DNA from: Bacteroidota bacterium
GTDB lineage: Bacteria; Bacteroidota; Bacteroidia; UKL13-3
Direction: 5' to 3'
NCBI GenBank assembly: GCA_947456185.1
Contig: CANGPW010000016.1
Coordinates: forward strand, 1-41,239
Length of the DNA stretch: 41,239 nucleotides
A model generated the notes under the pieces. The model was given only the letters and a program-made list of their open reading frames with translations, had not been told where the DNA came from and ran no database searches. The position numbers and the translations under genes were made by a program. This document shows positions 4,029 through 26,922 of the stretch, piece after piece (within the stretch, counting starts at the first letter, position 1; the number at the start of each line of letters is the position of its first letter).

Positions 4029-4370
4029 TTAGTCGGCTTTTCCTCCTAGCATCATAAATTCATTCACAATGATTTCGGTAACGTAACGCTTTACACCTTC
4101 TTTATCGGTATAATTGCTGTTACTTAACTTGCCTTCAATGGCCACTTCGCTACCTTTTTTTAAATACTTAGCCGCAATTTCGGCTTGCTTGCCCCAAACT
4201 GTTAAGTTATGCCACATGGTTTCTTTTACTTCTTTACCATTTTCATCGCGGTAACTTTCGTTGGTTGCTATGCTGAATTTAGCTAATTTTTTTCCATTAG
4301 TAGTTTCTTTAACTTCTGGATTTTGGCCTAAATTTCCTATTAGGCGGACGCTGTTTTTTAAGTTGTTCAT
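4029..4370 (-). CDS. ssb: Single-stranded DNA-binding protein, tail-less, copy B (downstream)
   Basis: A 113-residue SSB consisting of just one OB fold. It starts NNLKNSVRLIGNLGQNPEV and contains the diagnostic TMWHNLTVWGKQAE block and KKGSEVAIEGKLSN. The family normally continues into a flexible linker and an acidic tip (DDDIPF-like) that recruits repair and replication partners; here the protein ends at MLGGKAD, so this function is missing. It differs from the copy upstream (4441-4782) at six residues (8, 34, 64, 85, 106 and 113). The 70-base gap holds a partial copy of the upstream leader, so this is a recent tandem duplication. It is probably co-transcribed with the first copy and followed by the terminator at 3959. 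Confidence 0.92.
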   Translation of the reverse strand: MNNLKNSVRLIGNLGQNPEVKETTNGKKLAKFSIATNESYRDENGKEVKETMWHNLTVWGKQAEIAAKYLKKGSEVAIEGKLSNSNYTDKEGVKRYVTEIIVNEFMMLGGKAD

Positions 4371-4440: not shown

Positions 4441-4782
4441 CTAGTTAGCTTTACCACCTAACATTAAAAATTCATTCACAATGATTTCGGTAACATAACG
4501 TTTTACGCCTTCTTTGTCGGTATAATTGCGGTTACTTAACTTGCCTTCAATGGCTACTTCACTGCCTTTTTTCAAATACTTGGCCGCAATGTCGGCTTGC
4601 TTGCCCCAAACTGTCAAGTTATGCCACATGGTTTCTTTTACTTCTTTACCATTTTCATCACGGTAACTTTCGTTGGTAGCTACACTGAATTTAGCTAATT
4701 TTTTTCCATTAGTAGTTTCTTTTACTTCTGGATTTTGGCCTAAATTTCCAATTAGGCGGATGCTGTTTTTTAAATTGTTCAT
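4441..4782 (-). CDS. ssb: Single-stranded DNA-binding protein, tail-less, copy A (upstream)
   Basis: A 113-residue SSB OB fold, identical to the neighbour at 4029-4370 in 107 of 113 residues. The conserved core includes the aromatic Trp53 and Trp59 in the MWHNLTVWGK region, expected to stack with DNA bases. It ends MLGGKAN and has no acidic partner-binding tail, so a longer canonical SSB is probably encoded elsewhere in the genome. The start ATG is preceded by an A-rich leader (TTTAAAAAACAAAAA on the minus strand) that also precedes copy B. Because the leader is shared, each copy may have its own translation signal. The stop is TAG here and TAA in copy B. Confidence 0.92.
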   Translation of the reverse strand: MNNLKNSIRLIGNLGQNPEVKETTNGKKLAKFSVATNESYRDENGKEVKETMWHNLTVWGKQADIAAKYLKKGSEVAIEGKLSNRNYTDKEGVKRYVTEIIVNEFLMLGGKAN

Positions 4783-17142: not shown

Positions 17143-17214
17143 TTGTTAAAATTTGTAAATTAATTAAATAATATTATGTTAGCAAACTGTTTAAAATTTA
17201 AAAATAATAATAAA

Positions 17215-20200
17215 ATGAAATATATGTACTTTAATTTATCCATCCGAAAGCTTAAATACAGCGCTGTTTTGGTTTTTCTATTGTTTACGTCTATATTGGT
17301 AAAAGCCCAGGCAGATTTTACAATAGCTCCTACAATAGCTTGTGCTGGAGTTGACAGAACACGTGTTAATATTACCACACCTGGTATTGCAGCAGCTGAT
17401 TTAATTTCATTTACTGTTCGTTGGGGCTTATCAAATGATACAGCTGTAAATGCTAGAATTGCAGGGCAACCGCCAATTCCATTGTTTTCGAAACAATATT
17501 TTAATGGCGGTACTTATACCATAACAGTTGTAGTTAAAAGAAATGGTGGGCCAGATGTTGTTATCAATAAAACTGTAAAGATTTGGGAAAGACCATTTAC
17601 AGCTTTTACCCTTTCAAGTGCTGATAACCAATGTTTTAAAAATAACCAATATTGTTTCGGCAATATTTCAAAACAGGGTACTGCACCTTTGGTTAAGTAT
17701 GAATGGACTTTTGGAGATGGAAATTATCGATTAATTACTGATACCAATAACAGAAATATATGTCATCAATATGCATTGAATAATCCCGCTTACCAAGTTG
17801 GATTAAAAGTAACAGATTCTGTTGGTTGTACTACCGATCCTATTGCTGATTTATTAAGCGCTAAAGGAGTTAGATTGGCGCCAGACATTAATCCTAAATT
17901 TGAAATTACAGGTAAAACTCAGTGTGATACAACTTTTTATATATACAAAAACACCACTGCAATGAGTTTTGCAAATGTATATTCATTTACTTGGGATTAT
18001 GGCGATGGTACAACATATGTTTCTGGCCCACCTAACACTATTTCTCAAGATTTTGATAGATGGTCTAAGCCTTATAAACATGGATATACTACTAATAATG
18101 TGTTTCGTCCTTCTTTATTTGTTAAAGATAAATCATCAAATTGTTCAGATATATTTTATTACGAAAATACAGGTTTACCATTACCCGAAAATATTATCTA
18201 TCAAATTGAGTTGTTAACTAAACGAAGCATTCCAAACGATTCAATTGCTGATTCAATTTGTTTGATGAAACCAGGTGCAGCAACACTTACCATGTATAAT
18301 AAATATGATTTACAAGGACCGGGTGGGACACCATTAGATTTACAATGGCATTTTCATGATCCAAATGCAAATCCACCAGGATCAGATGTAAATCCATTTA
18401 GAAATGTAATACAACCTACTTATGATTACAAAGGTATGGGTCAGTTTTTTCCTACTTTAACTGTAAAATGTCCGGGTACTACTGCTAAATCAAGAACATA
18501 TACTTTTTATTCAAAAATAGATACCCTTCCAAAAGATTTAAATAGGTATCAATATCAAGATTTTTGGGCTGCTCCAGATCCAAATTATCCTCAGTGGACC
18601 AATCCGAACGACCCACAATTAAACCCCATTTTATATACAAAAAATGGCAGATTATTGACACCAAATACTGCTACAAATCCTCAGTTTTACAATTATAACG
18701 GTAAAATATCGGCATATGTTTATGATACAACTTATAGTTCAGTTGATCCAACTGTTATATTAAGTATTCATGCACGTCACAATGGTTGGGCTGATTCTAT
18801 GAGTTCAAGTTGGGATTTCTTTAACATAAATGAAGATGCATGTATTAATAAATGGATTGATACAGGTTCTGTAACTTTTAGAAATCCTTTTACAAGTTCA
18901 TTAATTACAGTTCCATTTTATAGAGATTTTTGTAACCCAATATCTCGTGTAATAAGAACTACAGATACATTATTTAGAGATAAATTAATAGGTTTAGGAG
19001 TACAAATTTTAGGTCCTTTTGTTAGAATTGAAAATCCTCCATCAGGTGTAGTTTTACAATGGCAAAAATTACAATGTGGTCCTGATTATCCAGTACAATT
19101 TGTAAATAATTCATTGACTTATCAATCAAATAGACTTTGGATTCGTTGGGATTTTGCGGAAGATGCATTTGCCCCTGCTTGTACATCTTATTCTATTCCA
19201 AATCCTTCACAAGCAAATGGCGGAAAAAAGCCATACACTAGTGCTGGTGATTTACAAAATAGAACCATTGGTGCTTTTATTGCCAATGGAAAATCTTATT
19301 TAGGTAGATTAAATATTTGTAATTACTCACACGATACAATTCCTACACGCCAATATACCAATTGGGATGTAGCTTTTGATTGGTATAGATATGGACATGA
19401 TTTTCCGCCTTACGATTCAACAAGATGGAAAAAAGGATATACAGTTTGGCCAACATCAGTAGCTCCTCCAGCTGGATTTACATGGGTTCAACCAAGAGAT
19501 TCAAGCACTTGGAATAAACCAATGACTGCAATTGGACCTACACCAACTCGAATAGATACCATGGTCAATATTTGGCCTGCAGATATTCCCGCTAATAATG
19601 TGATTATACTGAACAGGGCAATTCCAGATCCAATTTCAAGTTCAAGAGGAAATTGGATGGATGTTATTCCTGCTGGAACAAGAATTGACACAGGTTTATT
19701 ACCCATTAATTTAGCTCAAAAAGCAAATGATGGAAGAATTAGAACTTATAGAGGTTCTGACATTATACCTGGAATTTCTCCTTCTAAAACCTTATATAGA
19801 TATGCTTTTGACCGTCAGGTTGTACAAGATGTTACAGTTACTTTAAGAATGAAAGATTCATTGAATAATATTTCTGGTGATCCTGGATTTAGAAAAATAA
19901 AGTTGAAATTTGATACCATTCAAATTTATGATCCTATTACTAACGGTACAAAAGATTCTATAATCAGAGATTCTCTATTCTTAGATGATTGGGATTGTAA
20001 TGGTTCTAGTAGCGTAACATTAAGTTTTACTCGTCCAGATGCATTTGGTTTAAGTCAAGATGGAAAAGTTTGTCCTAATTTTAAAAACGGTTCTTCAGGT
20101 GGAGACCCTCAATTAATATTTAATAGAGCAGGATATTTAGATTCTTCAAGAACAAATCAAGGTGCGGGTATTTTACCTTCTAGTTCTAGAACAATGTTAT

Positions 20201-23200
20201 TAATTAATTATGATTCATTACTAGATAGAAATGACAATACACCTTGTAAATTAGATAATTTTGTGGATTGGTCTGGCGTAAATCCTGATCCATTATATGC
20301 TGGAGGATTAACTATGCCTATGATGTACAATTCAGTTAATTATCCGTTACCTCCACCACAACAATGGAGTTCTCCATCAGGAAATAGAGCATGGCTACAT
20401 TATTGGCCAAGTGGACCAACAGGTGCTGGGGTTAACAACATGCCTAAAGATCCTAAAGGCTGGATAACATTGGGTTTAATAGTAGGAACTGGATGTTTTT
20501 CTCCTACCAATTGTAATTTGCCATCATGTGTTAGTGATACCGTTTGGTACCATCGTTTCTTCAGATTTATAGAATTGAATGCAAACTTTACCATTGAAAA
20601 TTTTGCCCATGATTTTCCAAATCCTCCACCTTTCTGTTACTTAAGAGGAAGAGGAGATGATGTTGTATTTCATTATTACGATTCAATTCAAGATAATGTA
20701 ATTGCCGATGTTTGGGATTGGGGTGATGGAACTGCTACTGTAGATTCATTTTATTACCAACCAAATGAAGACATTCCTTTTAATAGAATTAGGTATATAT
20801 TCAATTCAAATGAACTTCCATGGACGCTTTCAAGTACGGAATACTTTCCTGTTGGTTCAAGAATTTCTGTCGATACAGTGATCAATAAAATTTATCGTTG
20901 TGATGACATAGCTAAAGTTTTACCACCACAAAGAATAGATACCATAATTACTACTCGTGATTCAAGTTTAATGTTTACTCCTATTCACCATAAATACTTA
21001 AAAACTACTTTTGAACAAATGGTATTAGGTGGAAGTGGGCAGTTAGAAAGAAGAGGTGATATAACCCCTGTTCTACATAATATGGTAACAAATAGTTATT
21101 TTAAATGTGAAAACAGAATAACCAAATACATAGTAATTGGAGTAATTGATACTTTTGATATTAAGAATGCAGCTGGTGAATGGGACACAGTTTTCTGCCA
21201 AGGCGAAACAGTTTATTTCTATGATTCCATCAGGTATTGGTATCCTTCCACTAATTGTTCAAGGCCATTAAACATTCCTGCAAATGAAAATGATTTATTG
21301 AATAACGATCAAGGAAATATGCATAATTGGGCATATACAAAAGACAATTATCCAATTGATTCAATTCAAACAAATGTTACTTACGATTTAACTGATTATT
21401 TAGTTTTCCCTGGTACTACTGCTGTTTGTCCTGTTACTCATAATAATTTAAGAGTAGTTGGTGTGGCAGCTGATGGATTTTCTCCAGTAGTGCGTTGCTT
21501 TAAAAACAGAGAGTATTTCCATGAACGAATTTATTGGGATTTTGAATCTGATGGAGTTGTTGATGCTTTTGGACCATTTAGGGTTACAAATCCTATTACT
21601 CATCAATATCCTAAATATGGTAGATATAAAGTATCAATGATTTCAATTGATAGTATTGGCCGTTGGGATACTTGTTTCCAATTTGTAAACGTAGTAAAAC
21701 CTATAGCAGCTATTGAAGCTAAAGATCTTTATATTTGTGGTGATAACTTTATATTCAAAGATTCTACTACAATTTTAGATGATTATTGGGCTACTACTGG
21801 TATAGATTCATTAGATAGAATTGCATCATGGAAATGGTGGTTTGGTGATAGAAAATATTATCCATTAGCTCCTCAATCTATTTTGAAAAACCCTGTTTAT
21901 GACTATAGAAGAAATGGTAAATATACTTTACGTTTAGCTATAAGTACTGAACAAGGTTGTACCGATACTGCCTTTAAAGATATCTTTATCAGTGGCCCTC
22001 GTCCTCATTTAGTAATTTTAGATGATACACTTGGTTGTGCACCTCATAGAGTTAGAATAGTAAGTATTCCAGAACGTGAAGTATGGGCAAATGCTAAAGA
22101 TACACCAACTAAATCTACATTTATACTTTCTGGAAGACCAGATGGTGCATCTGATTTTATCCAATATTCAGTGATAGATACTGCAACTTTCTATTATGAT
22201 CAACCAGGAACATATTATATTTCAGCAATAGCTTATGATAATATTAATGGTGCAGGTGGAGTTTGTAAACCAGTTATTATTCCTGACACCGTTGATGGTT
22301 TTGAAAAACCAATAAGAATAACTGTAAATGTACCTTACAAAGTAGATTTTTTAAGTTCTAGAGATACTGTTTGTGTAGGTGAAGTATTTACAATAACAAA
22401 CAAATCAGACAGAGACACCATTAATAGATATAGAATGGATGTTTTTGATGCTAAATACAATGCAAGGTTAGATTCAGTGTTAAAAACTAATTTTATAGCT
22501 GATACATCATGGCAGTATAGATTTAATAATATTGGTCAATACAAATTGGTATTAAATTCAACTAGATTTAATAAAGGATTCTCTCTTTGTTTAAATCAAG
22601 ATACCATTACAATGGTAGCTACTAGATCAAAAGCAGATTTTACAGCAACTGCAGAAGGTGAAGCAGCATTTAGGTTTACCAATACTTCTGATACAGCTAT
22701 TTCAGATAAATATACATGGAAAATTTATAATCCTGATGGCTCAATGTTTAAAGACTATCCAAAAAGTTTTGATGAAACAAGTGATTTAAACAATTTTGTA
22801 CAAACTTTCTATGATCTTGATTCAACTAAATCTTTTATAGTTTGTATAGTTGCTGATGTAGCCGGAACACATTCTTGTCCTGATTCAGTTTGTAAAACAA
22901 TTGACGTAATTGTACCAAAAAGTAAATTGAAAATACCAAATGTATTCACACCTAATGGTGATGGAGTAAATGATGTATTTAAAATTGATATATCTGGATT
23001 CAAAAAATACAGTTTAGTGATTTGGAACAGATGGGGTAATAATGTTTTTGAAAGTGGTAATCCTGAAATTATGTGGAATGGTAAAACTAATAACGATGGA
23101 GGAGAAAACCCCGCTGGTACATACTATTACTTATTTAATTATCAATTAAGAGGTGGAGAAGAGCAAACAATTCGTGGTTCTATTACACTGATTAGAGATT

Positions 23201-23202
23201 AG
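17215..23202 (+). CDS. Giant PKD-domain T9SS type B surface protein
   Basis: About 1,995 residues from the ATG at 17215, chosen because a normal signal peptide (KYSAVLVFLLFTSILVKAQ) then begins near the N-terminus; an upstream in-frame ATG at 17176 would add 13 residues. PKD-type Ig-like domains are marked by W-x-F/Y/W-G-D-G-like motifs near 17704 (WTFGDG), 17992 (WDYGDG), 20713 (WDWGDG), 21535 (WDFESDG) and 21835 (WWFGDR). The middle (about 18300-20600) has little recognisable domain signal. From about 22930 a type B T9SS domain runs to the end (IPNVFTPNGDGVNDVFKID, IWNRWGNNVF, GSITLIRD). It is likely a large surface adhesin or matrix protein. It lies 72 bases after the anti-sigma-like gene with no terminator between. 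Confidence 0.88.
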   Translation: MKYMYFNLSIRKLKYSAVLVFLLFTSILVKAQADFTIAPTIACAGVDRTRVNITTPGIAAADLISFTVRWGLSNDTAVNARIAGQPPIPLFSKQYFNGGTYTITVVVKRNGGPDVVINKTVKIWERPFTAFTLSSADNQCFKNNQYCFGNISKQGTAPLVKYEWTFGDGNYRLITDTNNRNICHQYALNNPAYQVGLKVTDSVGCTTDPIADLLSAKGVRLAPDINPKFEITGKTQCDTTFYIYKNTTAMSFANVYSFTWDYGDGTTYVSGPPNTISQDFDRWSKPYKHGYTTNNVFRPSLFVKDKSSNCSDIFYYENTGLPLPENIIYQIELLTKRSIPNDSIADSICLMKPGAATLTMYNKYDLQGPGGTPLDLQWHFHDPNANPPGSDVNPFRNVIQPTYDYKGMGQFFPTLTVKCPGTTAKSRTYTFYSKIDTLPKDLNRYQYQDFWAAPDPNYPQWTNPNDPQLNPILYTKNGRLLTPNTATNPQFYNYNGKISAYVYDTTYSSVDPTVILSIHARHNGWADSMSSSWDFFNINEDACINKWIDTGSVTFRNPFTSSLITVPFYRDFCNPISRVIRTTDTLFRDKLIGLGVQILGPFVRIENPPSGVVLQWQKLQCGPDYPVQFVNNSLTYQSNRLWIRWDFAEDAFAPACTSYSIPNPSQANGGKKPYTSAGDLQNRTIGAFIANGKSYLGRLNICNYSHDTIPTRQYTNWDVAFDWYRYGHDFPPYDSTRWKKGYTVWPTSVAPPAGFTWVQPRDSSTWNKPMTAIGPTPTRIDTMVNIWPADIPANNVIILNRAIPDPISSSRGNWMDVIPAGTRIDTGLLPINLAQKANDGRIRTYRGSDIIPGISPSKTLYRYAFDRQVVQDVTVTLRMKDSLNNISGDPGFRKIKLKFDTIQIYDPITNGTKDSIIRDSLFLDDWDCNGSSSVTLSFTRPDAFGLSQDGKVCPNFKNGSSGGDPQLIFNRAGYLDSSRTNQGAGILPSSSRTMLLINYDSLLDRNDNTPCKLDNFVDWSGVNPDPLYAGGLTMPMMYNSVNYPLPPPQQWSSPSGNRAWLHYWPSGPTGAGVNNMPKDPKGWITLGLIVGTGCFSPTNCNLPSCVSDTVWYHRFFRFIELNANFTIENFAHDFPNPPPFCYLRGRGDDVVFHYYDSIQDNVIADVWDWGDGTATVDSFYYQPNEDIPFNRIRYIFNSNELPWTLSSTEYFPVGSRISVDTVINKIYRCDDIAKVLPPQRIDTIITTRDSSLMFTPIHHKYLKTTFEQMVLGGSGQLERRGDITPVLHNMVTNSYFKCENRITKYIVIGVIDTFDIKNAAGEWDTVFCQGETVYFYDSIRYWYPSTNCSRPLNIPANENDLLNNDQGNMHNWAYTKDNYPIDSIQTNVTYDLTDYLVFPGTTAVCPVTHNNLRVVGVAADGFSPVVRCFKNREYFHERIYWDFESDGVVDAFGPFRVTNPITHQYPKYGRYKVSMISIDSIGRWDTCFQFVNVVKPIAAIEAKDLYICGDNFIFKDSTTILDDYWATTGIDSLDRIASWKWWFGDRKYYPLAPQSILKNPVYDYRRNGKYTLRLAISTEQGCTDTAFKDIFISGPRPHLVILDDTLGCAPHRVRIVSIPEREVWANAKDTPTKSTFILSGRPDGASDFIQYSVIDTATFYYDQPGTYYISAIAYDNINGAGGVCKPVIIPDTVDGFEKPIRITVNVPYKVDFLSSRDTVCVGEVFTITNKSDRDTINRYRMDVFDAKYNARLDSVLKTNFIADTSWQYRFNNIGQYKLVLNSTRFNKGFSLCLNQDTITMVATRSKADFTATAEGEAAFRFTNTSDTAISDKYTWKIYNPDGSMFKDYPKSFDETSDLNNFVQTFYDLDSTKSFIVCIVADVAGTHSCPDSVCKTIDVIVPKSKLKIPNVFTPNGDGVNDVFKIDISGFKKYSLVIWNRWGNNVFESGNPEIMWNGKTNNDGGENPAGTYYYLFNYQLRGGEEQTIRGSITLIRD

Positions 23203-24206: not shown

Positions 24207-25856
24207 ATGATTGACAATTCATTAATAAATGAAGAAACACTTCGTGCTATATTTAATAATGCGGTAGATGGAATGATAGTTATAAATAATAGAGGTATTA
24301 TTCAAACAATAAATAATTCTGTAACTAACATGTTTCAGTTTTCTAACGATGAAATGATAGGCAATAACATTAGTATGTTAATGCCTGAACCAGATCACTC
24401 AAAACATGATGGTTATTTAAAAAAGCATAACGAAACAGGTGAAAAAAAAATAATTGGAATTGGAAGGGAGGTAATTGGTAAGAGAAAAGATGGTACCACT
24501 TTCCCATTTTTTTTAAGTATTTGCGATGTTGAAACGGAAAACGGTGATAAGCTTTTTGCTGGAGTTATACATGATATAAGTGTTTTGAAAAAAGCACAAA
24601 AAGACATAGAAGATTATAGTAAGATCCTAGAAAAAAATAATTTAGATTTAGAAAAACATGTAAAAAATAGAACGGCTCAATTAAGTATTGCAAATTTAGA
24701 ATTGGAGAGCTCTAACGCATTATTAGCAAATCAAATAGTTGAAACGAATAAAGCAAATGTTGAATTATTAAAGTCTCAACAAATGCTTACCATCATTTCC
24801 CAAAATTATCCAAATGGGATTATAAGTGTTTTCAATAAAAACCTTGTTTGTGAGTTTATTGAAGGACTTGAATTGAATACACTTAATTTGAAAAAAGAAG
24901 ATTTTTTAGGTAAAACAATAGCTGAAACTTTTGATAAAGAAATAAGTGAAATACACACACATCATTTTAACAAAACAGTTAATGGTGAAAATACCATGTA
25001 TGAATTAGTTATAAATAACAATAATTATTTGTTTTATACAACTCCAATTAAGGATGATTATGATTCAATTGACAGAATTGTAGTAGTTTGTTTAAATATT
25101 AGTTTGGTAAAAGAGGCGGAAGAAAAAACCAGACATGCATTAGATAAAGCCAATGAATTAAGTGAATTGAAATCTAGGTTTATTTCTATGGCGTCTCATG
25201 AATTTAGAACGCCCTTAAGTACTATACTTTCATCGCTTAATTTAATGGTAAAATATAAAGAACTAAATGAACATGAAAAATTTGCGTCACATGGTGTTAA
25301 AATTAAAACTTCAATTATTAATTTAACTGAAATTTTAGAATATTTTTTATCAGTAGAAAAACTAGATTCAGGACATTTTAAAATTGAACCGACTACATTC
25401 GATTTGGTTGATTTTATTAATACAAACATAGATGAAGTTGTAAACGATTTAAAAGATAAACAAAGAATAGTATTACAGCTTTCTCTAAAAAAAATTATGA
25501 TTAATCATGATAAAAAGATAATCAGAACTATTTGGCAAAACTTAATTACTAACGCAATAAAGTATTCTCCAGAAAACGGTGAAATTATTGTTCATTTACA
25601 AGCAAATGATGATAAATTCATTTTAAGTGTAATTGATAATGGAATTGGTATTCCTCTAAATGAACAAAAACACTTATTTGAAAGATTTTACAGAGCAAAT
25701 AATGCTGCTAATATTCAAGGAACGGGTATTGGTTTAAATATTATAAAAAAATACATTGAACTTCTAGGTGGTAATATTACATTTACCAGCAAACTAAATG
25801 AAGGAACAACTTTTACAATTAACCTCCCATTGGTTTTAAATCCAATATCAAATTAA
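24207..25856 (+). CDS. FixL-like haem-PAS sensor histidine kinase
   Basis: A 549-residue soluble kinase with no membrane segment. PAS domain 1 (about residues 10-125) contains MPEPDHSKHDGYLKKH and KKIIGIGREVIGKRKDGTTF, which align without gaps to the FixL haem domain. His67 falls on the haem-ligating His200 of Bradyrhizobium FixL, Arg87 on the distal Arg220, and Ile82 on Ile215. A coiled coil (about 125-190) and a second, weaker PAS-like region (about 193-305) follow. The HisKA box is ASHEFRTPLS (phospho-acceptor His331). The ATPase domain has the N box (NLITNA, Asn449), DNGIGIP (477-483) and GTGIGLN (505-511). It probably senses O2, NO or CO and phosphorylates the receiver protein encoded seven bases downstream. 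The gas-sensing role is inferred from conserved haem residues. Confidence 0.88.
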   Translation: MIDNSLINEETLRAIFNNAVDGMIVINNRGIIQTINNSVTNMFQFSNDEMIGNNISMLMPEPDHSKHDGYLKKHNETGEKKIIGIGREVIGKRKDGTTFPFFLSICDVETENGDKLFAGVIHDISVLKKAQKDIEDYSKILEKNNLDLEKHVKNRTAQLSIANLELESSNALLANQIVETNKANVELLKSQQMLTIISQNYPNGIISVFNKNLVCEFIEGLELNTLNLKKEDFLGKTIAETFDKEISEIHTHHFNKTVNGENTMYELVINNNNYLFYTTPIKDDYDSIDRIVVVCLNISLVKEAEEKTRHALDKANELSELKSRFISMASHEFRTPLSTILSSLNLMVKYKELNEHEKFASHGVKIKTSIINLTEILEYFLSVEKLDSGHFKIEPTTFDLVDFINTNIDEVVNDLKDKQRIVLQLSLKKIMINHDKKIIRTIWQNLITNAIKYSPENGEIIVHLQANDDKFILSVIDNGIGIPLNEQKHLFERFYRANNAANIQGTGIGLNIIKKYIELLGGNITFTSKLNEGTTFTINLPLVLNPISN

Positions 25857-25863
25857 TTCAAAA

Positions 25864-26922
25864 ATGAAGAAAATATTAGTAATTGAAGATAACAAAGATG
25901 TACGTGATAATATTGCCGAAATACTTGAACTTTCAGGTTATAAAGTAGAACAAGCAATAAATGGAAAAGAGGGTGCTACTAAAGCTAAATATTTACTTCC
26001 AGATTTAATTATTTGCGATATCATGATGCCGGAATTAGATGGTTATGGTGTTTTAAATTTGTTATCTTCAGAAAGTATTACTTCATCTATTCCTTTTATA
26101 TTTTTAACTGCAAAGGCGGAATTAAATGACATGCGAAAAGGCATGAACATGGGCGCTGACGATTATATTACCAAACCTTTTGAAGATGCTGAATTATTAA
26201 AAGCAATAGAAGTTAGATTAGGTAAGGTTAGTGCTATTAAATCTGATTTCCATAAATCAATTGAAGGCATAGAATCATTCATTGAAACTGCAATGACTTT
26301 GGAAGATTTAGACAAAATATCGAAAGACAGAAAAAGAATTTTGTTTAAAAAGAAACAACCTATTTATAGCATTGACAATGTGCCAAGAGGAATATATTTT
26401 ATAGAAAAAGGCTCTGTAAAAACATACAAAACGAGTTTAAACGACAAAGATTATATTTCAAAAATTTATAATGCAGGTGAATTTTTTGGATATATTAATT
26501 TGTTAGAAAATGCAAATTACTCCGACAATGCTGAAGCTTTAGAAGAAACTGTTACTTATTTTATTCCTAAAGACGATTTTTATGAACTGATTTCTAAAAA
26601 CAGATTAGTGGCTAATTCATTTATAAAAATGCTTGCCGGAAGTGTAGTAGAACACGAAAACAGAATGATGAAATTGGCTTATAATTCTGTTAGAAAACGC
26701 ATTGCAGAAAGCTTAATTATGCTAGATAAAACTTATAACACCAAAAACGAAGAACATTTTGTTATCAATGTAAATAGACAAGATTTGGCAAGTTTAGTAG
26801 GAACAGCTGCAGAAACTGTCATTAGAACTTTATCGGATTTTAAAGAAGAAAAATTAATTGAAGTAAAAGGCAGTGCAATTACCATTTTAGAAAAAAACAA
26901 ACTTTTGAACATGAGAAATTAG
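25864..26922 (+). CDS. Response regulator: receiver domain fused to CRP/FNR-type cNMP-binding and HTH domains
   Basis: A 352-residue transcription factor. Residues 1-120 are a complete receiver domain: acidic pocket Glu8/Asp9, phospho-acceptor Asp52 in ICDIMMPELDG, Thr82 in LTAKA, and Lys104 in TKPF. Residues about 140-260 are a cyclic-nucleotide-binding-like beta-roll (RGIYFIEKGSVKTYKT, GEFFGYINLLEN). Residues about 268-345 are a Crp-type winged helix (RQDLASLVGTAAETVIRTLS, then DFKEEKLIEVKG). The cAMP pocket motif of Crp (RSATV-like) is not evident, and there is no FNR-type N-terminal cysteine cluster, so control probably comes from phosphorylation rather than ligand or an Fe-S cluster. It is encoded seven bases after the kinase and is its likely partner. 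It combines what FixJ and FixK do separately in rhizobia. Confidence 0.9.
   Translation: MKKILVIEDNKDVRDNIAEILELSGYKVEQAINGKEGATKAKYLLPDLIICDIMMPELDGYGVLNLLSSESITSSIPFIFLTAKAELNDMRKGMNMGADDYITKPFEDAELLKAIEVRLGKVSAIKSDFHKSIEGIESFIETAMTLEDLDKISKDRKRILFKKKQPIYSIDNVPRGIYFIEKGSVKTYKTSLNDKDYISKIYNAGEFFGYINLLENANYSDNAEALEETVTYFIPKDDFYELISKNRLVANSFIKMLAGSVVEHENRMMKLAYNSVRKRIAESLIMLDKTYNTKNEEHFVINVNRQDLASLVGTAAETVIRTLSDFKEEKLIEVKGSAITILEKNKLLNMRN

Follow-up and report, generated by a model that had tools for sequence, protein, structure and literature searches.

FixL, the haem-PAS kinase of rhizobia, is silenced when O2 occupies its haem, and loss of O2 permits phosphorylation of its partner, FixJ, which in turn switches on the CRP/FNR-type protein FixK. 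In the hybrid FixL (hFixL) system (PMC7888657), FxkR and FixK are not fused, and FixK is induced at the level of transcription. Here we describe a gene pair from a Bacteroidota genome (GTDB lineage UKL13-3; assembly GCA_947456185.1), lying in a stretch of 41,239 nucleotides (contig CANGPW010000016.1) that we call the window. Two open reading frames (ORFs) on its forward strand, 24207-25856 (549 amino acids, aa) and 25864-26922 (352 aa), separated by 7 bases, encode a histidine kinase with a FixL-like PAS domain and a response regulator in which a receiver is fused to a CRP/FNR-type part. All the sequence evidence points to a conserved two-component system for gas sensing, one that varies the FixL theme and is not of a new kind. 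We judge it reasonably probable that the pair works as a direct two-component O2 switch for micro-oxic respiration, with a kinase born of the collapse of a four-gene relay. What is new with respect to an earlier note on this DNA is that sister species have the relay and that the kinase is apparently a chimaera, and the occurrence of both wirings in one genus is the most interesting part.

On sequence comparison, the resemblance of the first PAS domain of the kinase (PAS1) to FixL is far above chance. The earlier note had aligned about 45 residues, with His67, Ile82 and Arg87 opposite FixL His200, Ile215 and Arg220; these correspondences hold, and a search of PDB sequences extends the match to residues 9-126 (E 5.2e-30). 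All 14 PDB sequences matched by PAS1 are haem-PAS proteins, in the order FixL, E. coli DOS/DosP and FG214. Leu and Ile occupy FixL columns 236 and 238, and the relation to the FixL PAS is found in fold as well as in sequence. The His, the Arg and their surroundings are invariant among 26 aligned domains, and the His200 and Arg220 equivalents occur together in 47 of the 48 FixL-class domains of kinases encoded beside receiver-CRP genes (PAS score >75 bits; the set takes in near-copies from the window's genus). The kinase has two PAS_9 stretches, a HisKA and a HATPase_c domain, each over the Pfam gathering score. The second PAS-like domain (PAS2, residues ~186-305) that had been suspected is indeed there, giving a 150-bit alignment to a PAS-like stretch of a relay kinase of a sister species. 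The kinase falls outside the rhizobial FixL equivalog NF041777 of NCBIfam (166.8 bits against a cut-off of 850), and for neither protein did any of the best 25 NCBIfam models reach its cut-off.

The 352-aa protein matches Response_reg, cNMP_binding and HTH_Crp_2 over Pfam gathering scores; with PF00027, PF13545 and PF00325 over cut-off, and E317 and R321 present, it belongs to the CRP/FNR superfamily. The residues E8, D9, D52, T82 and K104 of a response regulator are invariant in 31/31 aligned homologues. The ORFs, the Pfam matches and this invariance thus bear out the earlier claim of a receiver with a complete active site, fused to a cyclic-nucleotide-type roll and a Crp-type helix-turn-helix (HTH), seven bases downstream of the kinase. 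The DNA-contact Glu and Arg (CRP E181, R185) are likewise kept in 31/31 regulators. Of the seven contacts of CRP with cyclic AMP (cAMP) that were compared, six are replaced (E72, R82, S83, R123, T127 and S128 by Y, S, D, S, H and E) and G71 is kept, which is not the pattern of a cAMP-responsive CRP. Since the receiver residues are invariant, the cAMP contacts replaced and the DNA contacts kept, phosphorylation is the likely trigger, not cAMP. The full-length model of the regulator has a predicted local distance difference test (pLDDT) score of 82 and a predicted template-modelling (pTM) score of 0.43, and in view of the latter the modelled placement of the receiver relative to the CRP part is provisional. 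Nor is the protein a FixJ: it carries a cyclic-nucleotide-type roll and a Crp-type HTH, not a receiver with a LuxR-type HTH.

In same-genus sisters (L012-L014; L-numbers are locus labels) the receiver-CRP gene closes a four-gene order: haem-PAS kinase 1 with the H-box SHDLQEP, a receiver of ~150 aa, a receiver-(PAS)-kinase 2 and the receiver-CRP gene. The haem-PAS relay recurs at L015, L028, L042, L081, L082 and L110, and the same order with other PAS domains at L066, L080, L084 and L086. The direct form, with the haem-PAS on the regulator-adjacent kinase, is found in the window's clade and at L016-L018, L070, L072, L075, L077 and L102; in the window, kinase 1, the small receiver and the receiver of kinase 2 are all absent. 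The window kinase aligns over residues 6-149 with kinase 1 of L012 (75%) and over residues 177-549 with its kinase 2 (68%). An NxDL stretch at the junction is common to both parent kinases, and the coil between the halves resembles, by eye, the receiver-PAS linker of kinase 2. In the PAS tree the window PAS groups with those of L012 kinase 1 and the L102 kinase (branch value 96), next to L015 kinase 1 and L017/L018 (96), whereas in the kinase-core tree the window core joins the kinase-2 cores of L012 and L015 (97), and a single clade (100) takes in every one of the 11 kinase-1 cores. From the split alignments and the discordance of the two trees, the window kinase appears as a domain chimaera with respect to the sister species.

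We envisage the following mechanism. Haem on His67 would bind O2, with Arg87 on the distal side; when O2 is absent, the HisKA/HATPase core would become active and transfer a phosphate to Asp52 in the receiver-CRP protein. This phosphorylation, and not cAMP, would enable the CRP/FNR-type HTH to bind operators of the pattern TGAY-N4-RTCA, like those that in the window's genome precede genes for cbb3 oxidase, nitrous oxide (N2O) reductase and complex I. Expression of cbb3, N2O reductase and related genes would rise, a single protein doing the jobs of both FixJ and FixK of rhizobia. Within the genus, the kinase would have arisen when the relay collapsed and the PAS2-kinase core of relay kinase 2 received the haem-PAS of relay kinase 1; the kinase 1 core and the small receiver, along with the receiver and one PAS of kinase 2, would have been lost.

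Table 1. Positions in the window of the gene pair, its predicted domains and its key codons.
Feature	Position	Strand	Basis
Sensor histidine kinase, 549 aa: haem-PAS, coil, PAS2, HisKA, HATPase_c	24207..25856	+	
FixL-type haem-PAS domain (aa 9-131)	24231..24599	+	
His67 codon, predicted axial haem ligand (BjFixL His200)	24405..24407	+	alignment
Ile82 codon (BjFixL Ile215)	24450..24452	+	alignment
Arg87 codon (BjFixL Arg220, distal O2 switch residue)	24465..24467	+	alignment
Apparent fusion junction (~aa 149-152): relay kinase 1-like upstream, relay kinase 2-like downstream	24651..24662	+	alignment
PAS2 (aa 186-305), counterpart of PAS-like stretch of sister species' relay kinase 2	24762..25121	+	
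HisKA (aa 322-389)	25170..25373	+	Pfam
Predicted phospho-accepting His331 codon, H-box SHEFRTP	25197..25199	+	
HATPase_c (aa 435-542)	25509..25832	+	Pfam
Response regulator, 352 aa: receiver, cNMP-type roll, Crp-type HTH	25864..26922	+	
Receiver domain (aa 4-116)	25873..26211	+	Pfam
Predicted phospho-accepting Asp52 codon	26017..26019	+	invariant 31/31
cNMP_binding-type roll (aa 161-246), six of seven cAMP contacts replaced	26344..26601	+	Pfam, CRP alignment
Crp-type HTH (aa 278-349); Glu317, Arg321 equivalent to CRP Glu181, Arg185	26695..26910	+	Pfam, alignment

Full-length matches to the regulator (E 1e-60 or better, five candidates scored per genome) are present in at least 59 of 392 genomes drawn evenly across the phylum, a count that includes the window's own. 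Such matches also occur in 14 of 20 relatives and, within the genus, in 7 of 9 genomes; tblastn at E 1e-3 matched 578 stretches, many perhaps through the receiver alone. A survey of the kinase-regulator order, such as the earlier note had called for, covered 60 loci from 58 of the genomes with a full-length match. At 53 of the 60 the receiver-CRP gene is preceded by a kinase (the other 7 were typed 'unk'), and the kinase is FixL-class at 15 by strict motif and at 20 by PAS score >75 bits (a hand count, which takes in L151, without the His and the Arg). At most surveyed loci the partner kinase has another PAS class, with a His at the haem-ligand column in 57/62 cases and the Arg in 13/62 (hand count); this class could be a second class of haem sensor. 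Among the best 80 loci on genome contigs, 18 are FixL-class by strict motif, several of them near-copies; since these 80 match nearly the entire regulator and the regulator is so widespread, the idea that the window pair is unique was dropped. The compact FixL/FixJ/FixK-like circuit proposed earlier has the support of its sequence and fold and of the gene order and context, but is less special than it had seemed, the receiver-CRP architecture being common in the phylum. The class may already be catalogued in reviews of response-regulator output domains; neither a receiver-CRP regulator nor a FixL-type Bacteroidota kinase appears in the titles and abstract openings, mainly open-access, of the part of the literature covered. 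Taking these loci together, it is conceivable, and we propose it only tentatively, that Bacteroidota have a one-protein counterpart of FixJ plus FixK, gated by phosphorylation and governing micro-oxic respiration, that the haem-PAS input has repeatedly moved between the upstream kinase of the relay and the downstream kinase of the direct form, and that the non-FixL PAS could be the second haem class.

The context of the loci points to a role in micro-oxic respiration. At least one of universal stress protein (Usp), HemN, FixH, CcoG and CcoNO was found near 19 of 40 survey loci (Usp 10, HemN 5, FixH 4, CcoG 4, CcoNO 4) against 0 of 40 random stretches, which were of equal length, from elsewhere on the same contigs, and not centred on other two-component genes. 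Hsp20 was found near 7/40 against 1/40, and a DsbD_2-type protein is a further recurrent neighbour. Counts from the clustering of neighbours across loci are weighted towards Dyadobacter-like loci, and cluster 8 of that clustering, which mixes different P-type ATPases, was omitted from the comparison with random stretches. Several observations weigh against a respiratory role. The markers, as well as the palindrome described below, were picked after viewing overlapping loci, which flatters the contrast somewhat and makes the p-value of the locus versus random test optimistic; Usp, the least oxygen-specific marker, supplies much of the signal; and no respiratory genes were recognised beside the pair within the window. 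As to targets in the window's genome, HemN was discarded because no HemN scores over the curated cut-off, and a Usp beside the cbb3 cluster because the 279-aa protein found there has no Pfam family at 1e-4. A D-2-hydroxyacid dehydrogenase gene lies near 10 of the 60 survey loci (among L133-L154), and at 9 of the 10 the kinase is FixL-class; the dehydrogenase at L137, the sole one fully searched, falls in the lactate dehydrogenase group, which hints at fermentation control.

A candidate operator is provided by a palindrome that, in 632 upstream stretches, occurs as ATGAC-N4-GTCAT in 20 (shuffle expectation 0.1) and as ATGAT-N4-ATCAT in 29 (0.9). The combined pattern ATGAY-N4-RTCAT is present in 18 of 161 upstream stretches at receiver-CRP loci versus 0 of 132 at random stretches, and sites of a looser pattern precede Usp, hemN, ccoNO and Hsp20 genes and the kinase gene itself across loci. 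In the window's genome (G000; C denotes a contig), exact palindromes lie 70 bases upstream of a cytochrome c-nosZ-NosL operon and 43 bases upstream of a nuoA-like gene (below the curated cut-off), and a near match lies upstream of ccoNO. In all 8 genus genomes examined, the start of ccoNO is preceded at 112-117 bases by TGAC-N4-RTCA; the arms are kept, whereas the four-base spacer differs between the window's clade and the other genus genomes, and DNA matches to four other genomes did not extend over this stretch. Of the ccoI-ccoNO intergenic sequence used as a query, the leading ~97 bases (C31, L186:11824-11920) have many dispersed matches on both strands in related genomes and behave like a short repeated element. 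Preceded by an exact ATGACTGGAGTCAT palindrome, the nos operon (C20, L190:4469-8198) encodes a cytochrome c, a Sec-dependent NosZ that scores over its NCBIfam cut-off, and a protein with a NosL domain; in a related genome (G005, C366 and C259; L240, L243) the palindrome of the nos leader is degenerate, and this genome also holds a second partial match to the region. The nos promoter was set aside as a phylogenetic footprint: the site is degenerate in the fourth genome, and the three close genomes are identical there but equally alike in the flanks.

Such sites may be used by the receiver-CRP protein, by an FNR-like protein, or by both. The window's genome encodes a stand-alone CRP/FNR-like protein with N-terminal cysteines, a candidate FNR of the lineage (C15, L189:6300-7010), whose E..IR recognition residues are those of the regulator, so that the palindromes may be partly or wholly its own. 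This could mean that the FNR-like protein is the main regulator of cbb3 and nos genes, the FixL-type pair controlling a different, small set of genes. Other observations also count against our reading: the palindrome exceeds its backward control not only in 33 of 40 genomes that have a full receiver-CRP match but also in 19 of 20 that lack one (hand count); the window's genome shows no enrichment of the exact form, which occurs at 8 sites where the backward control has 19, and of the 6 inspected, 4 are intergenic and 2 fall within genes; and no site precedes the window's kinase gene. We nevertheless regard this alternative as somewhat unlikely, because receiver-CRP loci are where the palindromes concentrate, together with Usp, HemN and cbb3 genes, though an FNR could bind there too. 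The idea of the palindrome as a private operator of the receiver-CRP protein was given up, given identical recognition residues and an enrichment independent of that gene. So was autoregulation of the pair in the window, for want of a site there, and the idea that the motif tracks Ile or Ser before the DNA-contact Arg, both groups having given ATGAT-N4-ATCAT.

Relay and direct forms were interchanged several times. On the regulator tree, a quick one of 113 of the 154 loci with many weak branches, the relay/direct character needs 9 changes, with 13 loci of unknown type uncounted, and FixL-class input 5. The tree does not tell which way the changes ran, and the direct loci L016-L018 are close outgroups, which speaks for a direct form ancestral in the genus and a relay gained by splitting and recruitment. 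We hold this to be unlikely, since kinase-1 cores of a single clade and alike small receivers recur in the same order in distant lineages, and repeated assembly of such a set is improbable. An old relay with repeated collapse is favoured on these grounds, and for the window's kinase we infer a change from relay to direct form.

As to the ligand, two residues of BjFixL, R206 and H214, are replaced in PAS1 by K73 and K81, a departure from FixL that tells against simple O2 sensing. It would agree with another ligand logic, in which the kinase senses nitric oxide (NO) or carbon monoxide, or is activated by O2, and the receiver-CRP protein governs nitrosative-stress or denitrification genes, not cbb3. 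The nosZ operon behind an exact palindrome fits such a logic, as does a small cytochrome c gene in tandem with one for a 445-aa COX1-family protein (C27, L188:6957-8704), perhaps an NO reductase of the NorBC type. This logic is improbable in view of the near-constant Arg220 equivalent, an O2-specific residue of FixL, and of recognised survey neighbours that are Usp, HemN and cbb3 genes. Quite improbable is a PAS1 that is FixL-like but haem-free in the cell, or bound to another cofactor, with PAS2 or a redox cue as the input: the second PAS of the kinase and the different PAS class of most surveyed partner kinases would allow it, but the solved relatives of PAS1 are haem proteins without exception, and its His and Arg are kept with their surroundings.

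Elsewhere in the window, adjoining ORFs of equal length (113 aa) on the reverse strand, at 4029-4370 and 4441-4782, are perhaps a tandem duplication, and a secreted-looking protein of 2008 aa is encoded at 17176-23202, with what may be PKD-like stretches and a gliding-type C-terminus.

If the direct O2 switch is confirmed, it would have consequences at two levels. N2O reducers without nitrite reductase are over-represented in the phylum (PMC4250227). Such a phylum would then read O2 via a phosphorylated CRP/FNR protein and not through a FixJ-FixK cascade. Within one genus, a relay of four proteins would stand beside the two-protein form into which it collapsed, the two alike in input and output, and the added value of a phosphorelay (amplification, extra inputs, timing) would be measurable by comparing natural sisters.

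Comparison with known systems places the pair as follows. The regulator shares with CRP, FNR and FixK the roll, the Crp-type HTH and the DNA-contact Glu and Arg; it differs from that family by its N-terminal receiver and the loss of six cAMP contacts. The haem-PAS of E. coli DosP serves a phosphodiesterase as output, not a kinase. Relay kinase 1 with SHDLQEP and the ~150-aa receiver presumably resemble cyanobacterial phytochrome-Rcp1 pairs; here, in contrast, the input is a haem-PAS or another PAS, and the pair is clustered with a receiver-CRP protein. This system and FixL-FixJ-FixK both start from a haem-PAS kinase, alike in fold and ligand residues, and end in a DNA binder of the CRP/FNR type; the palindrome has the same geometry, and genes of the cbb3/FixH/CcoG set and HemN are among the receiver-CRP neighbours. 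The anaerobox of FixK/FnrN is TTGAT-N4-ATCAA (PMC7888657), whereas the outer base is mostly A or C here, not T. The phylum differs too, and in place of a LuxR-type FixJ there is a single protein that unites the receiver with the CRP/FNR part. The hFixL-FxkR-FixK system of Rhizobium likewise has a haem-PAS kinase that feeds a CRP/FNR factor via a regulator other than FixJ, but what are there two proteins, FxkR and FixK, is here a single receiver-CRP protein.

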